From the NCBI RefSeq assembly GCF_002750855.1, contig NZ_NWUC01000007.1, positions 1-64,000 of the forward strand: a DNA stretch of 64,000 nt, written 5' to 3'. The notes below the pieces were generated by a model that saw nothing but the letters and a program-made list of their open reading frames with translations, made no database searches and was not told the origin of the DNA. The stretch's first letter is position 1; each line of letters begins with the position of its first letter. A program made the translations under genes and the position numbers. This DNA comes from Neopararhizobium haloflavum (lineage in GTDB: Bacteria; Pseudomonadota; Alphaproteobacteria; Rhizobiales; Rhizobiaceae). Positions 2,660-10,548 of the stretch are shown here, piece after piece.

Positions 2660-3610
2660 CTATTCAGCCGGCTCTTCGGACACGATGCATCGGCGGCCCG
2701 ATGCCTTTGCCTGATACAGCAAACGGTCTGCCGTGCTAAGGGTATGATCCAGTGTCCTGTCCGGCCGCCTGTCCGGCCGCACGGAGCAGATCCCGGTTGA
2801 AAAACTGCACGAGTAGTCGGGGGCTTGGGCGAACCGAATGCTTCCAATGTCTTTTAATATAGCCTGCAGGCGTAAAGTGGCATCGGCAACCGAGCAATTG
2901 GGCAAAAACAGAAGGAACTCTTCGCCGCCCATTCTTCCGAAAAGGTCCTGGAGCCGAATGCCGCTAACGAAACGCCGACAGAATTCGATAAGGACGACGT
3001 CGCCAAAATCGTGGCCATACCGGTCGTTCACATCTTTGAAGCGATCAATGTCGATGAGAGCAATGGCATGCTCACCAAAAGTTTCCTCTTGAAGCCTTTG
3101 AGATAGCCAGTCTCTCAAAGTTTTCATGACGTAACGCCTATTGGCGACGTCCGTCAGTTCATCTGTCCAGGATGCGCGGCGTGCTTCATCGCGCTCCACG
3201 CGGATGTTGCGTCCCGGCGCCTTCAGAGCAGTGATCTCACTGGCGACTAAAACCAGGAAGCCCTTGAGATCCAATGTCTCAGTGATCCAGAAGATCCGTC
3301 CATCCACCATTTCTGCTTCAAAAGCGCGGTGGGGAACTGTGCCACGGCGAGCATCAGCAGCGGTAAGCCAGGCCTCTATATCGTCTGTCTCGATCAGCGG
3401 GCCGCGGCGATGAATGAAGTTCTGGCGCATGAACTCGTGCCAGTACGGTCTCTGCGCAGGATCACAGAAGTAAACCTCTCGAAATGAGGCGTTCGCGAGA
3501 ATGAGGCGGTCGCTAGCATCGAACACGGCTATCAGGTTCGGATTGGACCCTAGCAGGAGATCCAGGTTATACGTTGATATCGAAACAGGGGGAGAAATGT
3601 GCATTTGCAT
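2660..3610 (-). CDS. PAS-like/GGDEF diguanylate cyclase
   Basis: This is predicted to make cyclic di-GMP from two GTP. Residues about 15-130 form a PAS-like sensor (LLGSNPNLIAVFDASDRLILAN). The GGDEF domain begins near 148 (DELTDVANRRY), contains DIDRFKDVND near 187, and carries the active-site variant GGEEF at 228-232. RLQD at 219-222, five residues before it, matches the product-inhibition I-site, so an active, feedback-controlled enzyme is expected. The ATG at 3610 is chosen because GGAGAGG sits six bases before it; an upstream ATG at 3685 would overlap the preceding EAL gene. No membrane segment is seen, so it is probably cytosolic. It follows the EAL gene by 46 bases in the same direction, indicating co-transcription. 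Confidence 0.9.
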   Translation of the reverse strand: MQMHISPPVSISTYNLDLLLGSNPNLIAVFDASDRLILANASFREVYFCDPAQRPYWHEFMRQNFIHRRGPLIETDDIEAWLTAADARRGTVPHRAFEAEMVDGRIFWITETLDLKGFLVLVASEITALKAPGRNIRVERDEARRASWTDELTDVANRRYVMKTLRDWLSQRLQEETFGEHAIALIDIDRFKDVNDRYGHDFGDVVLIEFCRRFVSGIRLQDLFGRMGGEEFLLFLPNCSVADATLRLQAILKDIGSIRFAQAPDYSCSFSTGICSVRPDRRPDRTLDHTLSTADRLLYQAKASGRRCIVSEEPAE

Positions 3611-3656
3611 CAGAACCTCTCCAGAATTTTCGAGACAGCCGGCCGCATCCACTAGG

Positions 3657-4427
3657 TCAGTAAGTTGACGCACGGGCAGAGCCACGGATGTGGACAGGCG
3701 TGGCTAAACTTTCGAATGCCGGTTTTGCCAGAAGATAGCCCTGCACGAGGGAAACGCCGAAATCGCGCAAAACCTCAAGCTCTGCAAACGTCTCTACGCC
3801 CTCGCAAAGCGGTGTGATGCCCAAGTCGCGCAGAAGATTGAGCGTATGCTTGACCACAGCGCGTTTGACCGGGTCCGTATCGATGCCTCGGACGAGACCC
3901 ATGTCCAGTTTCACAATGTCCGGCTGAAACTGTGTAAGCAACGCCAGGCCGGCGTGGCCCGCCCCGAAATCGTCAATCGCGGTACTAAATCCCATGGCAC
4001 GATAGGTGCGCAGAATGTGAAGGACGTGTTTGGTGTCGAGCTGTTCGTTCTCGGTGAACTCGAATATGATCCGATCGAGTGGGAAGCCGACTTTCATGGC
4101 AGTTTCAAGTGTAAGTCGGATGCACGCGCGTGGCTCATAAACGGCATTGGGCATAAAATTGATCGAAAGCTTGGTCGGGCTGTCACGGTGATAGAGCCTT
4201 GCTGCCAGTTGAATAGCCTTCACTCGACACTGCTGATCAAAGGCATATCTGTTATTCTGATCAACTTGGCATAGAACGGTCGCTGCGCCTTGGCCTTGCG
4301 GTCCACGGACGAGAGCTTCATGGGCGAAGACGATGCCGTTATCGAGGTCTACGATCGGCTGGAACGCCATCGAAAAAGACAGATCGATCTCATGTCCGTC
4401 GCGGCAGCCTTCACACAGCCTCGCCAT
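3657..4427 (-). CDS. EAL-domain cyclic di-GMP phosphodiesterase
   Basis: A stand-alone EAL protein of 256 residues predicted to hydrolyse c-di-GMP to pGpG. The metal and catalytic residues appear intact: EAL at 37-39, Asn90 (SIN), Glu123 (EFTE), Asp152-Asp153 (DDFGAGH), Lys173 (KLD), Glu209 (EGVE) and Gln229 (VQGY). The N-terminus has CEGC at residues 5-8, a possible metal or redox site seen in some single-domain EAL proteins. It has no membrane segment. It is the first gene of a two-gene unit with the diguanylate cyclase downstream, so synthesis and breakdown of the same messenger are encoded together inside an island. Confidence 0.9.
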   Translation of the reverse strand: MARLCEGCRDGHEIDLSFSMAFQPIVDLDNGIVFAHEALVRGPQGQGAATVLCQVDQNNRYAFDQQCRVKAIQLAARLYHRDSPTKLSINFMPNAVYEPRACIRLTLETAMKVGFPLDRIIFEFTENEQLDTKHVLHILRTYRAMGFSTAIDDFGAGHAGLALLTQFQPDIVKLDMGLVRGIDTDPVKRAVVKHTLNLLRDLGITPLCEGVETFAELEVLRDFGVSLVQGYLLAKPAFESLATPVHIRGSARASTY

Positions 4428-4924: not shown

Positions 4925-5512
4925 CTAGCCGTGTCTTACTGCGACAAGGACCGAAACCGAATATCGCGCTGTACGAGTTGATCTAACCAGCAACAATCTC
5001 TTTCCGAGTAACCTTACGAAATCGCAATGCGCTTGTTCGGGACGTACCGTGGCATCGGTAAAATTGACATGATGGTGCAGAACCACAACTCGTCCGCCAA
5101 GGGCTAGGCGCTTTAAGAGTTCTCTTGCCAGAAAAGTGTAGGCGCTGCGGTGAAGATAGTAGACGATCTCTGAAACGACGATCAGATCAAACTGCTGCTT
5201 TGGCATGCCGTAAGGTAACTCTCCGTGTATCAGCCGCAAACGATCTGCATCGGTCAAACGCGCCCTTGCCTGTGCGATCGCGGTCGTCGAGCTATCCAGC
5301 GCGGTCAGGCGCAACGCGCATCTCAACAGAGCCTGCGTTGTAACGCCGTTTGCACAGGCAAGCTCAAGCACCCGGCCTCTGCATCTCAAACCTATATGAT
5401 TTAGCAAGATCTTACGCTTGTGCGCTTCGAACGGCGACGATTCATATTCCCAAGGGTCAGGATTGCTTCGGAACAGATCTTCGAAGCCGTCGATGTCTAT
5501 GCGACCGGCCAT
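4925..5512 (-). CDS. NodS-like SAM-dependent methyltransferase
   Basis: A class I SAM methyltransferase of 195 residues. The N-terminal FRSNPDPWEYESSPFEAHKR resembles the start of NodS-type methyltransferases. Motif I is VLELACANG at 48-56, an acidic residue follows in LTALDSST near 74, and FDLIVVSEIVYYL is near 108-120. NodS N-methylates the deacetylated glucosamine of nodulation factors; here the substrate is unknown. The start overlaps the end of the PIG-L deacetylase gene by 16 bases, so translation is probably coupled. It is the last gene of a four-gene minus-strand operon. In similar clusters deacetylase and methyltransferase can be fused, which would agree with consecutive steps; that is recollection, not shown here. 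Confidence 0.85.
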   Translation of the reverse strand: MAGRIDIDGFEDLFRSNPDPWEYESSPFEAHKRKILLNHIGLRCRGRVLELACANGVTTQALLRCALRLTALDSSTTAIAQARARLTDADRLRLIHGELPYGMPKQQFDLIVVSEIVYYLHRSAYTFLARELLKRLALGGRVVVLHHHVNFTDATVRPEQAHCDFVRLLGKRLLLVRSTRTARYSVSVLVAVRHG

Positions 5513-6213
5513 CGGCTCACCCAGTAGCTTTCGGTATCAACAACCAAGCGTGCAATTGTCTTTGAAGACAGAACGAAACCGCTCGGGTCGTCATCGACCA
5601 CCATACCCATCTGGGACCGATGCGCTGCAAGCGCGTGAAGCTTGATATCGACCACTTCGGAGATATCGAGCGTTGCATCGTCCACTTCTGCTTCTCCCGG
5701 CCAATCTTCCGGCCGCCCGCTTTCTTCGAGCCAGATCTGATATTCGAGGAAGGTGGTTTGCCTCCCGCTACGCCGCACAGCATCGGTTGCAATTTGCCAA
5801 CAGATGCGATGATCCGTGTGCGGATCCCGTCGCCATGGCACGATAACGGTCTTGAATTTCGACACTGAGACGAGATCAGAGACGAAATCTACCACATCAG
5901 CATATTCGTTTTGGCCTGGGACAGGCATCCGGCCATCTCGCAGTTTGAGAAAAGAGCTTGGCTGATTTTTCGCGCCGAGACGCCGCAACGCCTCCTGAGC
6001 CTCTGCCGCTCTGATGTCAGCCATGAGGTCGGGAGTATACTTCTTGGATGCGGGATGCGAGGCGCTGCCATCGGTAACGAACAACGTGTGCACCTTGATT
6101 CCGACCTTCATGGCCAGCGCGATTAAGCCGCCACATCCAAGCGTTTCATCGTCGGGATGAGGCGCAACGACGAGGATCGGTTCGCCGAGGTCGGTCACGA
6201 CAAATCGGCTCAT
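5497..6213 (-). CDS. PIG-L family (LmbE-like) deacetylase
   Basis: A 238-residue zinc-dependent N-deacetylase. PHPDDE at residues 18-23 gives the metal-binding His19 and Asp22 with the catalytic Asp21, and HTDH at 132-135 gives the second His motif. Family members such as MshB and PIG-L remove acetyl from GlcNAc-containing molecules. The ATG at 6213 is chosen because it overlaps the TGA of the preceding acyl-CoA dehydrogenase-like gene (ATGA), the typical coupling signature, although the frame is open ten codons further up. There is no signal peptide, so it is cytosolic. The neighbours suggest that it deacetylates the product of the glycosyltransferase before methylation. Confidence 0.88.
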   Translation of the reverse strand: MSRFVVTDLGEPILVVAPHPDDETLGCGGLIALAMKVGIKVHTLFVTDGSASHPASKKYTPDLMADIRAAEAQEALRRLGAKNQPSSFLKLRDGRMPVPGQNEYADVVDFVSDLVSVSKFKTVIVPWRRDPHTDHRICWQIATDAVRRSGRQTTFLEYQIWLEESGRPEDWPGEAEVDDATLDISEVVDIKLHALAAHRSQMGMVVDDDPSGFVLSSKTIARLVVDTESYWVSRWPVA

Positions 6214-7265
6214 GGCGTGGCGCGTCCAAGCCCCGGGGCCCACTCAAGGTCAGCGACCGACTTCCCGAGGACGTCCGCCGCCCCATCGGGGTTAGGCTGC
6301 CTCAAATAGGTGCGCAGGTCGCGAACCAGCCTCTCCAGCGGATGGGGCGCGATCATACCGGCGGCGCCCACGGACTTTTCGGCCAGATCGAGGACGAGCA
6401 TGGCTGCGTTTTCGACCACGCCGCGTGCAGCCGCCGTCGATGGGATCACTGTCTTCGCAAGCTTCGGCTGCCGCCACTCTCTTCCTACCCGATCAAGCCA
6501 CAGATATCCGGTCTCGACGGCGATCGCCATTTTCGCCAGTCGCTGTTGCTGAAGACGATCTTCACATCTGGACAAGCGTCTCAAATGGTCGAGCGTGACA
6601 TCCAGGATCGCATGCATGCCACCCACCTGAACTGCGACGAAGCGGATCGCTCCAGCGGATATCAAGGGCTCGCTCGTATAATCCCCTGGAAATCCGATGG
6701 CCCAATCGTCCTCTAGAACCACACCGCTGAAATCGACGACGTGGCTACCGGAAGATCGCATGCCCATGGGCTTCCACCATGAACGGTCGATCGAGAGGTT
6801 CTCGATTGGAACGAGCCACATCATGCGTTCCGCCATGCTTCCGGTAGTAACGATCGCATGGCTCAACCGATCGACGCCGGACGCGAAATTCTTTTTGCCG
6901 GACAGCACTCCATTCTCGATTACCAACGGCTCCTGAGGGGCGTCTGTGTTCCAAACACCAAACGTACCACCTGCCGCTAGCAGCCGCTCCGCTCTTTCCA
7001 ACGCAGCACCGCGCGAAAATTGGCGAGCGAGGATGACCGCGTTGACGTGTCCTTCGTAAAGACGGCCTGTGCTCATATCTCCGCGGCCGACTGCGGCAAG
7101 AAGCCTAAGCAGTTCAGGCGTTGCCTCCGTCTTCACCGGCGGCTGCGCGATAAGACCAGCGGCCTCCAGTGCCTCAAATGCAGCCTCTGGAAAGCTGCCC
7201 TGAGCATCGCATACAGCAGACTCCACGTTGATTGCCTTGGTCAAGCTCGCCAAATCATACGACAC
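6210..7265 (-). CDS. Acyl-CoA dehydrogenase family protein
   Basis: A 351-residue protein with an acyl-CoA dehydrogenase fold: an N-terminal helical part (FEALEAAGLIAQPP), a middle region with RQFSRGAALERAERLLAAGGTFGVWNT and GKKNFASGVDRLSHAIVT, and a C-terminal helical domain. It is shorter than typical enzymes (about 380) and I cannot point to the catalytic Glu with certainty, so a flavin-dependent oxidation of an acyl or amine group is only a family-level prediction. The GTG at 7265 is preferred: GGAGA lies nine bases upstream and the start overlaps the glycosyltransferase stop by 11 bases. Longer starts would run deep into that gene. Confidence 0.75.
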   Translation of the reverse strand: MSYDLASLTKAINVESAVCDAQGSFPEAAFEALEAAGLIAQPPVKTEATPELLRLLAAVGRGDMSTGRLYEGHVNAVILARQFSRGAALERAERLLAAGGTFGVWNTDAPQEPLVIENGVLSGKKNFASGVDRLSHAIVTTGSMAERMMWLVPIENLSIDRSWWKPMGMRSSGSHVVDFSGVVLEDDWAIGFPGDYTSEPLISAGAIRFVAVQVGGMHAILDVTLDHLRRLSRCEDRLQQQRLAKMAIAVETGYLWLDRVGREWRQPKLAKTVIPSTAAARGVVENAAMLVLDLAEKSVGAAGMIAPHPLERLVRDLRTYLRQPNPDGAADVLGKSVADLEWAPGLGRATP

Positions 7266-8475
7266 TTGCGAGTTCTCCGCTCGTATCCTTGTCGACGTAC
7301 CGGAACATCGCGCGTTGAAACTGCGAAACTGCGAACTCCACGGGAACTTCGCATGCATCTGGATTGTCCTTTGCCAGAACCTCGATGGCAGCTGCTCTTT
7401 CAGCGTGTTCACAGGACGGCGATCTCAGCCGTTTGATTCCTTCCGCCTGGAGCCGCGCCCGCAGCTTCAGCAAGTCGGCGGTACGCAGGTCCTTGCGAAG
7501 CAGGAATCGCGCGATGGTCTTATCAGGATCCTCCACGAGCAGCGGCTCGCCACGCTCCGCTTCGACTTTCCACCGTGCCAGGCTCTGGGACATACCTTGA
7601 GGCGCACGGCCGCATGTACGTGCAGAAACAGAAACCACCGCCTCCACGCTATGACGCACCAAGTAGCCAGATGCTCGCACCTTCGAGACGAAGGCAAGGT
7701 CTTCGCGATATGCGAGCGGATCAAGCCCACCCACTGCGGCGTAGACATCACTCCGAACGGCAATGCTCCCTGCCATCTCGAAAAGGTGGCGCGGCCAGGG
7801 GTCATGGTCGACGGGGTCGATGATTGATTCCAAGAGACTGCGGGCTTGGCAATAGGCACCGAAGGCGCGGCTTCGGTTGATCAGGGCGCCCCCCAGCGAC
7901 GCCTCTTCCGATGGGTCTGCCAAGATCATGCCAGTGACGAGATCCGCGCCTGTATGCGCAGCTCTCAGATTTGCGGCAACCCAGTCGTGATGCGGTTCGG
8001 CATCGGCGTCCGTCGTCATCAGCAGCACGGGTGAGGCCGACGGTGCCAACGTCAGTGCACGATGCATAGCTGTCTTACGCGCCATCCCGACGGTTGCGAT
8101 CTGAGGCGCAAAGTTCACTGTGTGCACTGTCAGGTCGACGTGGTTCGATCGACTCGCCAACTCTTTTGCCAACGCAGCCGACCCATCCGTCGAATTGTTG
8201 ATCAGGAGGAGGACCGAAAGCTTGTCTCCCGACGGCAGAGATTGCTGCTCTAAAGCCGCAAGAAGCCGTGGTAGGCGGGCCACTTCATTTCGCGCGGGGA
8301 TAGCCACGATGGGCTTCAGCGCCTGTGCGGATGGGTCGAACCAATTGCACGGTCTGCTAACAGGCCTCCCGTGACCGCAGCGACAGATGAGGCATGGCTC
8401 GACAGCTTTCATTCCATCGCTAATGCGATGAGCAGCCGCGCATGGTTTGACTGGGGAAACCGGCGTTGACATCAA
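7255..8475 (-). CDS. Family 2 glycosyltransferase
   Basis: First gene of the four-gene operon. The GT-A fold starts at about residue 54 with PIVAIPARNEVARL; INNSTDGS is near 92 and the nucleotide-sugar and metal-binding DADAE is at 156-160 (DxD). Further down are YREDLAFVSKVRASG and a basic acceptor region (SLARWKVEAERG). No membrane helices are obvious, unlike NodC-type synthases. The N-terminal 50 residues hold four cysteines (28, 31, 33, 43) in a CxxCxC arrangement that could bind metal, if translation starts at 8475; ATG codons at 8472 and 8412 (Met22) are alternatives. Donor and acceptor are unknown. Confidence 0.82.
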   Translation of the reverse strand: MMSTPVSPVKPCAAAHRISDGMKAVEPCLICRCGHGRPVSRPCNWFDPSAQALKPIVAIPARNEVARLPRLLAALEQQSLPSGDKLSVLLLINNSTDGSAALAKELASRSNHVDLTVHTVNFAPQIATVGMARKTAMHRALTLAPSASPVLLMTTDADAEPHHDWVAANLRAAHTGADLVTGMILADPSEEASLGGALINRSRAFGAYCQARSLLESIIDPVDHDPWPRHLFEMAGSIAVRSDVYAAVGGLDPLAYREDLAFVSKVRASGYLVRHSVEAVVSVSARTCGRAPQGMSQSLARWKVEAERGEPLLVEDPDKTIARFLLRKDLRTADLLKLRARLQAEGIKRLRSPSCEHAERAAAIEVLAKDNPDACEVPVEFAVSQFQRAMFRYVDKDTSGELASVV

Positions 8476-9058: not shown

Positions 9059-10273
9059 CTAGACGAGATCGCTGTTGTCGCGACGCAGCGCTGTGAGCCT
9101 GAGCTGATCGCAGATGTCTGCCCATTGCTGTGCCATGGCGACGCGTTCATCCCAATAGTCATAACGGTTGTATGTGCGCCTCACCCTGTTCGGATCGAGG
9201 TGAGCCAATGAGGCCTCGATTACATCCGATGGAAACCGACGCGCGTTCAGAATAGTGCTGGCACTGGATCGGAAGCCATGGGAGGTGTGCTCTGTTTTGG
9301 CATAGCCCATCCTCCTCAGCGCTGAATTCATCGCGTTTTCCGAGAGCGGCCGATCGGGATTGCGCACTGAGGGAAACACGAGACCACGACGACCTGAGAA
9401 AGCCGCCACGGATCTGGCGATGTCAATGGCCTGTGGGCTAAGCGGTATCACAAACTCACGGCGCAGTTTGGAATGTTCGGCAGGTATCGTCCACTCCGCC
9501 CGCTTCAAATCAAAATGTTCCCAGCACGCTTTGCGCAGTTCGACTGGGCGGGGATAGCAGAGGGCCATCATCTTCAAGGCCGCCCTCAATGTGGGCCATC
9601 CATCGTAGTCTTCGATGTTGGCGAGCAAAGCTCCGAACCGACGTTCATCGGTGATGGCCGCCTGAGGCGTGGATTTGTTGGGGAGCAAGGCGCCACGGAG
9701 TGCATAAGTCGGATCGCTGTCGGCACGCAGCGTGGCAACAGCCAGACGGAAAACAGCACTGATCGCCGCCCTCGTGCGATGGGCCGTATCAATTCTTCCG
9801 CTCGCTTCCACTGCCTTGATGACACGCAGCACATCGGCCGGGGTGATCTGACGGATCGGCATCGGCCTCAGTTCTGCTGCCAGACGATTGAGGCACCAGT
9901 CATTCTTGACGATTGTCTTCCGGGTGCGGCCTTGCTGAACCAGTCGCTCCAGATACTCGTCGGCAATTCCCCCAAAAGTGTTGGCAGCTTCTGCCTTTAG
10001 TGCTGCCGCCTCCCGCCGCCGCTCCATCGCGGGGTCCTTGTTCGATTTCAGTAGATCAAACGCCGTCGAATGGAGGCGGCGCGCGTCCTTGAGGGACACT
10101 TCGGGATACGCGCCGAGGGTCAGTGTATTTCTCCGCCCGTTCAGCGAGTAGTCATACCGCCAGACCTTTTTCCCGCTGGGCCGGACGTAGAGATAGAGAT
10201 TGTTTGCGTCGCTGATGCGATAGGGCCGATCAGCCGGCTTGGCCTGTCGCGCCCTTACATCTGTCAAAGCCAT
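9059..10273 (-). CDS. P4-type tyrosine recombinase (island integrase), intact
   Basis: A 404-residue site-specific recombinase. The N-terminal DUF4102-type arm-binding domain (MALTDVRARQAKPADRPYRI, with SGKKVWRYDY and LTLGAYPEVSLKDAR) is followed by a core-binding region and the catalytic domain. Catalytic residues are visible as RPVELRK, HTSHGFRSSAST, LAHLD and TYNRYDYW, providing R, H-x-x-R, H and Y. The ATG at 10273 is chosen because related proteins begin at MALTD; the frame is open to 10387. It sits 200 bases from the 3' end of tRNA-Gly(CCC), the likely attachment site. It is clearly related to the disrupted recombinase at 37575-38789 and has the same length. Confidence 0.93.
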   Translation of the reverse strand: MALTDVRARQAKPADRPYRISDANNLYLYVRPSGKKVWRYDYSLNGRRNTLTLGAYPEVSLKDARRLHSTAFDLLKSNKDPAMERRREAAALKAEAANTFGGIADEYLERLVQQGRTRKTIVKNDWCLNRLAAELRPMPIRQITPADVLRVIKAVEASGRIDTAHRTRAAISAVFRLAVATLRADSDPTYALRGALLPNKSTPQAAITDERRFGALLANIEDYDGWPTLRAALKMMALCYPRPVELRKACWEHFDLKRAEWTIPAEHSKLRREFVIPLSPQAIDIARSVAAFSGRRGLVFPSVRNPDRPLSENAMNSALRRMGYAKTEHTSHGFRSSASTILNARRFPSDVIEASLAHLDPNRVRRTYNRYDYWDERVAMAQQWADICDQLRLTALRRDNSDLV

Positions 10274-10473
10274 GTGTTTTCCCATCGAATACAGTACGGT
10301 CTGATCGGTGCGACGGTACGCATGTCGAATCGTACTGTAAATCGCGTGAGATGGCGCGGGATGGAATGGGACGACGCGGTACGACACGTCAGCAGGCTTC
10401 CGTATTTTCCATTAATTATCAGATAGATATGGAAACAGAACGAAACACCATGAAACCATCTGGTGTGGTCGAT

Positions 10474-10548
10474 TGGAGCGGGCGATGGGGATCGAACCCA
10501 CGACATCAAGCTTGGGAAGCTTGCGTTCTACCACTGAACTACGCCCGC
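10474..10548 (-). tRNA. tRNA-Gly(CCC)
   Basis: The minus strand folds into a full cloverleaf. The acceptor stem pairs GCGGGCG with CGCCCGC, the D arm is GTTC-AGTGGTA-GAAC, the anticodon stem is CAAGC/GCTTG with loop TTCCCAA (anticodon CCC), and the T arm is GTGGG-TTCGATC-CCCAT. The discriminator T and CCA are encoded. Its 3' end faces the recombinase gene, making it the probable integration target of the left island. Confidence 0.95.

Follow-up and report, generated by a model that had tools for sequence, protein, structure and literature searches.

In the Nod factor pathway, glycosyl transfer, N-deacetylation and N-methylation are brought together in one gene group, and its NodC protein is a membrane-embedded, chitin-synthase-type glycosyltransferase of family 2 (GT2). 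Two papers describe the Group D monooxygenases as enzymes with the acyl-CoA dehydrogenase (ACAD) fold that use reduced flavin supplied by a reductase and carry out aromatic hydroxylation and N-hydroxylation (PMC5481743, PMC6165268). Here we analyse a four-gene operon in a stretch of 64,000 nucleotides from Neopararhizobium haloflavum (contig NZ_NWUC01000007.1, positions 1 to 64,000; hereafter the window), which encodes a GT2 enzyme, an ACAD-like flavoprotein, a PIG-L deacetylase and a NodS-like methyltransferase. Because the set recurs across phyla, it goes beyond chance, and the four enzymes seem to form a genuine, as yet undescribed route to a modified amino-sugar compound. The operon occupies positions 8475 to 4925 of the minus strand and reads in this order:

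7255 to 8475, minus strand: glycosyltransferase family 2, GT-A type, with a TTDADAE metal motif (PF00535, 1.3e-10)
6210 to 7265, minus strand (GTG start at 7265, stop at 6210): ACAD-fold flavoprotein, a probable reduced-flavin-dependent monooxygenase (Acyl-CoA_dh_1, 3.4e-9; predicted local distance difference test (pLDDT) 93.9; DszC, 1.1e-32)
5497 to 6213, minus strand (ATG start at 6213, stop at 5497): PIG-L/LmbE zinc deacetylase (PF02585, 3.8e-25; diacetylchitobiose deacetylases, 1.3e-24)
4925 to 5512, minus strand (ATG start at 5512, stop at 4925): NodS-family S-adenosylmethionine (SAM) methyltransferase (PF05401, 3.2e-14; 4isc, 1.8e-45; NodS 3ofj, 5.3e-31)

As an earlier reading made from the sequence alone (the sequence-only reading) had described, successive genes overlap by 11, 4 and 16 bases, measured from start and stop codons, and the motifs DADAE, PHPDDE, HTDH and SAM motif I are present, and their key residues do not vary among the relatives aligned. 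All four Pfam assignments exceed the Pfam cut-off, Acyl-CoA_dh_1 covering the C-terminal part only, and none of the four window proteins reaches an NCBIfam equivalog cut-off.

A genome collection (84,980 species by its own description) was scanned with an alignment of the ACAD-like family, giving 561 pattern matches and 540 relatives, of which the best 80, that is the closest, were taken as a set of loci: 34 from Pseudomonadota, 24 from Cyanobacteriota, 19 from Bacteroidota, 2 from Verrucomicrobiota and 1 from Thermomicrobiota. The sequence-only reading had staked its proposal on the four genes being kept together elsewhere, and in these best 80 of 540 the neighbourhood survives. Counted with profiles built partly from members of the same 80 loci, PIG-L is found near the ACAD-like gene in 77/80, the methyltransferase in 79/80, the glycosyltransferase in 68/80 and all four in 65/80; in the sole locus of the 80 without a methyltransferase (L057), the contig stops just beyond PIG-L.

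Overlapping samples drawn by taxonomy, with matches accepted at E≤1e-40 and scoring limited to the 5 or 6 best candidates of each genome, gave family frequencies of 5/289 (class), 21/398 (phylum) and 28/297 (order), the window's own genome counted. They yielded 44 distinct loci with 1.5-kb flanks, 43 without the window, and among these 43 the methyltransferase is present in 42, PIG-L in 37, the glycosyltransferase in 25 and the full set in 21; at least two of them (L147 and L151) share their genomes with L041 and L054 of the 80-locus set. Two genomes scored as lacking the glycosyltransferase were inspected further, and both carry a related one, immediately after the methyltransferase (G390) or about 0.6 kb from the end of PIG-L (G622). 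Among close relatives, 11 of 61 genomes, the window's own included, hold a family member (E≤1e-37), accompanied by PIG-L and the methyltransferase in 11/11 and also by a glycosyltransferase within the flank in 7/11. Plasmids contribute 71 matching records; 9 of the 10 inspected carry the ACAD-like, PIG-L and methyltransferase genes, and the glycosyltransferase is present in 7/10. A helicase gene interrupts this group on the Deinococcus radiodurans plasmid, and the Methylobacterium FF17 plasmid carries the ACAD-like gene alone. Of the weaker ACAD-like matches, 0/16 have PIG-L, methyltransferase or glycosyltransferase beside them. The four-enzyme pathway is widespread but patchy in its occurrence.

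In three genomes of the same genus, the DNA match is restricted to window positions 4986–8341 (74–77% identity), and no flank similarity was found in these genomes over the 18–20 kb compared; since the match is confined to the four genes, the conserved unit is the operon, not the island. The four families have also diverged together: their distance matrices correlate at 0.76–0.92 over 79 four-gene loci, window included, and 500 shuffles of the labels gave 0.13 at most, a control that leaves shared species history in the correlations. The glycosyltransferase gene lies upstream on the same strand in 31/32 pseudomonadotal loci that have it, and downstream on the opposite strand in 11/15 such loci of Cyanobacteriota and 16/18 of Bacteroidota; as its placement differs between phyla, the gene link outlasts rearrangement. 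In a quick tree of the ACAD-like protein (65 rows), the rows cluster for the most part according to phylum, and the window protein is placed next to that of Rhizobium albus, to which it is 81% identical; an ancient spread followed by patchy loss and a recent transfer between phyla are thus equally possible.

The sequence-only reading had also placed the operon on a tRNA-linked island beside cyclic di-GMP genes, and this setting is confirmed: an integrase (9059–10387) and a tRNA-Gly (10474–10548) lie upstream, and EAL and GGDEF genes downstream. G+C content is 0.54–0.60 in the first 10 kb and mostly 0.61–0.65 in the next 16 kb, a weak mark of an island because later stretches of the window are equally low. 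A search for a duplicate of the tRNA end, which would mark where the island stops, gave none; the genome has two further matches, both on different contigs and with 2 mismatches. The adjoining integrase and tRNA-Gly would suit a mere gathering of four unrelated genes on an island, but the cross-phylum recurrence, the correlated divergence, the gene fusions described below and a genus match that ends with the four genes leave that explanation with next to no probability. Together with the 0/16 partners at weaker ACAD-like matches, they led us to reject chance co-location.

PIG-L and the methyltransferase are encoded in a single open reading frame at 12 distinct loci from two lineages, namely four in the window's own family (L008, L010, L011 and L012; L136 is the L008 genome again and was counted once) and eight Bacteroidota (L074, L078, L079, L086, L095, L096, L098 and L111). 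Their sharing of one frame suggests that the two enzymes act in consecutive steps. The set can also be split. In 3/3 genomes examined, those with an ACAD–methyltransferase pair that lacks an adjacent PIG-L but with PIG-L elsewhere (G343, G485 and G351, which is Methylobacterium J-068), PIG-L and a glycosyltransferase of the family found in the set are neighbours at a second place, no more than 3 kb apart; G343 and G485 resemble Methylobacterium J-068, with ACAD-like proteins 59% and 81% identical. Recurrence across phyla, partial fusion, the split into two pairs and unrelated flanks within the genus constitute strong evidence for one product.

We tentatively favour, at somewhat short of an even chance, a self-contained four-enzyme pathway to an N-methylated, oxygenated amino-sugar conjugate. 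In this pathway, the GT2 enzyme would attach an N-acetylated amino sugar, most likely N-acetylglucosamine (GlcNAc), to an acceptor; PIG-L would take the acetyl group off the attached sugar; the NodS-like enzyme would methylate the freed amine; and the ACAD-fold flavoprotein, with reduced flavin from a reductase encoded elsewhere, would oxygenate either the amine or the acceptor. Deacetylation followed by methylation is the best-supported part of this mechanism; we infer the sugar, the acceptor, the order of the first and last steps, the monooxygenation and its site, and methylation on nitrogen. The small N-modified glycoconjugate of the sequence-only reading is thereby partly supported: the conserved unit exists, and we infer the class of its product. 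Two observations weigh against the pathway. Clusters of the Afifella group (L041, L054, L147, L148, L150 and L151) have the glycosyltransferase, ACAD-like and methyltransferase genes side by side with no PIG-L adjoining, and PIG-L is absent at E≤1e-10 from 3/3 distinct genomes of this group searched whole (G349, which is also G788, G350 and G718). In addition, VIA-align comparison of the ACAD-like model puts dehydrogenases first, with monooxygenases within about one Z unit.

In the ACAD-like protein, the sequence-only reading had seen an acyl-CoA dehydrogenase-like protein and had proposed an oxidation step; an oxidising enzyme it remains, but the dehydrogenase label probably does not hold, as the protein has no catalytic Glu and is nearest by sequence to DszC-type flavin monooxygenases. 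The Glu is missing at both known positions, window residues 207 and 315–328, in 29/29 aligned rows. Residue 207, in the helix-G segment, where isovaleryl-CoA dehydrogenase has its catalytic site, precedes an invariant Arg and is I, V, M, A or W, and the loop at the second position, YEGT or LEGT in dehydrogenases, reads RDLxxYLRQPxPD, with no Glu at 315–328 in the 29 rows. An ordinary dehydrogenase-like relative in the same genome reads RDLRVHQILEGT at this loop, and LEG follows RDL/RDV in 8/10 aligned dehydrogenase-like relatives, this one included; the remaining 2/10 rows (L016 and L028) are themselves without the LEGT loop. The register was fixed by the shared RDL motif, and the profile–profile template, which also held unrelated frames of the same loci, was used for register only.

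Among the profile matches listed (60 of 82), DszC is the best (116 bits, 1.1e-32), followed by 5gj7 (5gj7/5z8t; 103 bits), MsuC (97.5 bits) and the best dehydrogenase (86 bits); in the same list the sugar N-oxygenases KijD3, DnmZ and nitrososynthase, at 70–74 bits, are level with dehydrogenases. The AlphaFold2 model (pLDDT 93.9) has the ACAD fold, and Foldseek ranks monooxygenases first. Fold comparison does not decide between dehydrogenase and monooxygenase, and the preference comes from sequence and from the Foldseek ranking; the family also has motifs of its own, GRxxEGHxNA and YLRQPxPD. On these grounds the ACAD-like protein probably inserts oxygen as a flavin-dependent monooxygenase. Were it instead a true acyl-chain dehydrogenase that desaturates an acyl group for the deacetylated amine, the product would be a glycolipid closer to the Nod factor. 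The ACAD fold, the Pfam domain and the tied structural Z agree with such a role, which we nevertheless consider improbable: the Glu missing at both sites in 29 relatives disfavours an enzymatic acyl-CoA dehydrogenase, the sequence profile favours monooxygenases, and no acyltransferase is found in the ten annotated neighbour families, a GNAT protein lying near one locus.

The PIG-L residues H19, D22 and H135, from the PHPDDE and HTDH motifs, are invariant in 25 rows, and PF02585 is the only Pfam match of the window deacetylase at E≤0.01. Its nearest solved structures by profile are diacetylchitobiose deacetylases (1.3e-24), then TT1542, BshB1 and, more weakly, MshB. That 25/25 PIG-L rows match the BshB1 and BshB2 models at E≤0.001 would accord with a route to a low-mass thiol-type cofactor like bacillithiol or mycothiol, in which the glycosyltransferase makes a GlcNAc conjugate, PIG-L deacetylates it and the later steps differ. 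We regard this as very improbable, since the window PIG-L reaches 72.9 of the 182.5 bits required for BshB1 and 59.5 of the 195.25 for a second BshB model, staying under the curated cut-off of every NCBIfam model matched, and no cysteine ligase was seen in the annotated neighbourhoods, where the search was not exhaustive. For the methyltransferase, the NodS Pfam match is found at E≤0.001 in 26/26 aligned rows, and E50 and G56 in the region of SAM motif I are invariant. Its nearest solved relatives are 4isc (1.8e-45), presumably a structural genomics entry from Pseudomonas syringae, and NodS 3ofj (5.3e-31), then N-methyltransferases of the phosphoethanolamine type, and it reaches 64.6 of the 300 bits of the NCBIfam NodS equivalog, below the cut-off.

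In the glycosyltransferase, T155/D156/D158 and E258/D259 are invariant in 25 rows. The place given to this gene by the sequence-only reading stands, but its start at TTG 8475 is probably too early, and the true start may be the in-frame ATG at 8412 or later, because residues 1–46 have pLDDT <50, relatives align only from about there and the genus DNA similarity stops at 8341. The model (mean pLDDT 77.5) is matched by Foldseek to PcManGT, WrtF and other GT-A enzymes; the matches are weak and unspecific (mannosyl-, fucosyl- and other transferases) and therefore assign no donor or acceptor. The window protein has no membrane-like segment, with a maximum 19-residue hydropathy of 0.93, and a stretch above 1.6 occurs in 4/25 aligned rows.

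The genes around the set bear on another explanation, in which it tailors a sugar within a larger surface glycan or exopolysaccharide instead of making a free small molecule: the glycosyltransferase would add one residue to a glycan carried on a lipid or polymer, and deacetylation, methylation and oxidation would follow. We hold this to be unlikely, but it is the main rival. At the second loci of G343, G485 and Methylobacterium J-068 (L200, L201 and L202), PIG-L and its glycosyltransferase sit among further GT2, GT4 and, in one genome, GT61 glycosyltransferases, and Novosphingobium P6W has three glycosyltransferases upstream of the set and one downstream; yet no second glycosyltransferase, polymerase or exporter recurs beside the set, common ATP-binding cassette (ABC) transporter ATPases aside, in the 10 of 45 listed neighbour clusters that were annotated for a recurring fifth gene. 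Of these ten, 3 have no Pfam match; the others include the ABC transporter ATPase (17 loci), short-chain dehydrogenase/reductase (10), EAL/GGDEF (10) and catalase (7), and the remaining annotated clusters are confined to Hymenobacter or Aurantimonadaceae. Several large clusters resemble other-frame readings of the core genes in strand and offset.

In 7 loci, L031 and L036 among them, the set has a large catalase gene nearby, and on a Bradyrhizobium plasmid (L034) ligD/Ku is close to it; a stress setting drawn from these neighbours is suggestive only. Returning to the self-contained pathway, its patchy cassette is kept as a unit in Pseudomonadota, Cyanobacteriota, Bacteroidota, Deinococcota, Verrucomicrobiota and Thermomicrobiota, and we advance as a rather unlikely idea that it defines an undescribed class of N-oxygenated, N-methylated amino-sugar conjugates (hydroxylamine, nitrone or nitroso sugar), possibly protectants in exposed, desiccating or oxidising habitats. 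The Deinococcus radiodurans ACAD-like protein (L175) has an N-terminal extension of about 420 residues without a Pfam match; a fusion of glycosyltransferase and ACAD in this 779-amino-acid protein (L175 4537–6873) was rejected, as its N-terminal part matches neither the glycosyltransferase family nor Pfam. Downstream of the window operon, the EAL protein (3657–4427, minus strand) comes near a RimA-type model, with 332 bits against the 430 needed, whose name implies regulation of ribosomal protein S6 modification; its frame overlaps a PAS-GGDEF reading frame (2660–3685).

No publication on the four-gene set was found in the open-access library searched, most subscription papers being outside this scope; the component families are known ones, and no description was found there of their combination, of how widely it occurs or of its probable product. 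Annotation labels the ACAD-fold enzyme an acyl-CoA dehydrogenase although the defining catalytic residue is missing. A pathway of just four genes could be reconstructed in another host, and the question is directly testable.

Compared with the Group D monooxygenases (DszC, TdsC, MsuC, KijD3, DnmZ and nitrososynthase), the window flavoprotein shares the ACAD fold and finds among them its best sequence-profile matches, but it is 16–23% identical to them, has its own motifs and no recurring reductase seen nearby, and its activity is predicted from sequence. The window deacetylase has the family and zinc motif of the PIG-L/LmbE enzymes (MshB, BshB and diacetylchitobiose deacetylase), but it falls under their curated cut-offs, and 12 of its relatives are fused to a methyltransferase. 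PDB 4isc, the closest solved relative of the window methyltransferase, is listed with the function of methyltransferase only.

With respect to the Nod pathway, NodA (PF02474) has no match in the window's own genome, nor in 14 control genomes, so that this search has no positive control; a true Nod operon was rejected on the deacetylase and the type of glycosyltransferase. The operon resembles the Nod pathway in joining glycosyl transfer, N-deacetylation and N-methylation, with a methyltransferase of the Pfam NodS family. It differs in having PIG-L in place of a NodB-family (CE4) deacetylase, a glycosyltransferase that, unlike NodC, has only PF00535 and lacks a membrane-like segment, and an additional flavoprotein. 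The Nod-like chemistry seen in the sequence-only reading thus holds as a parallel, and that parallel is analogy, not membership.

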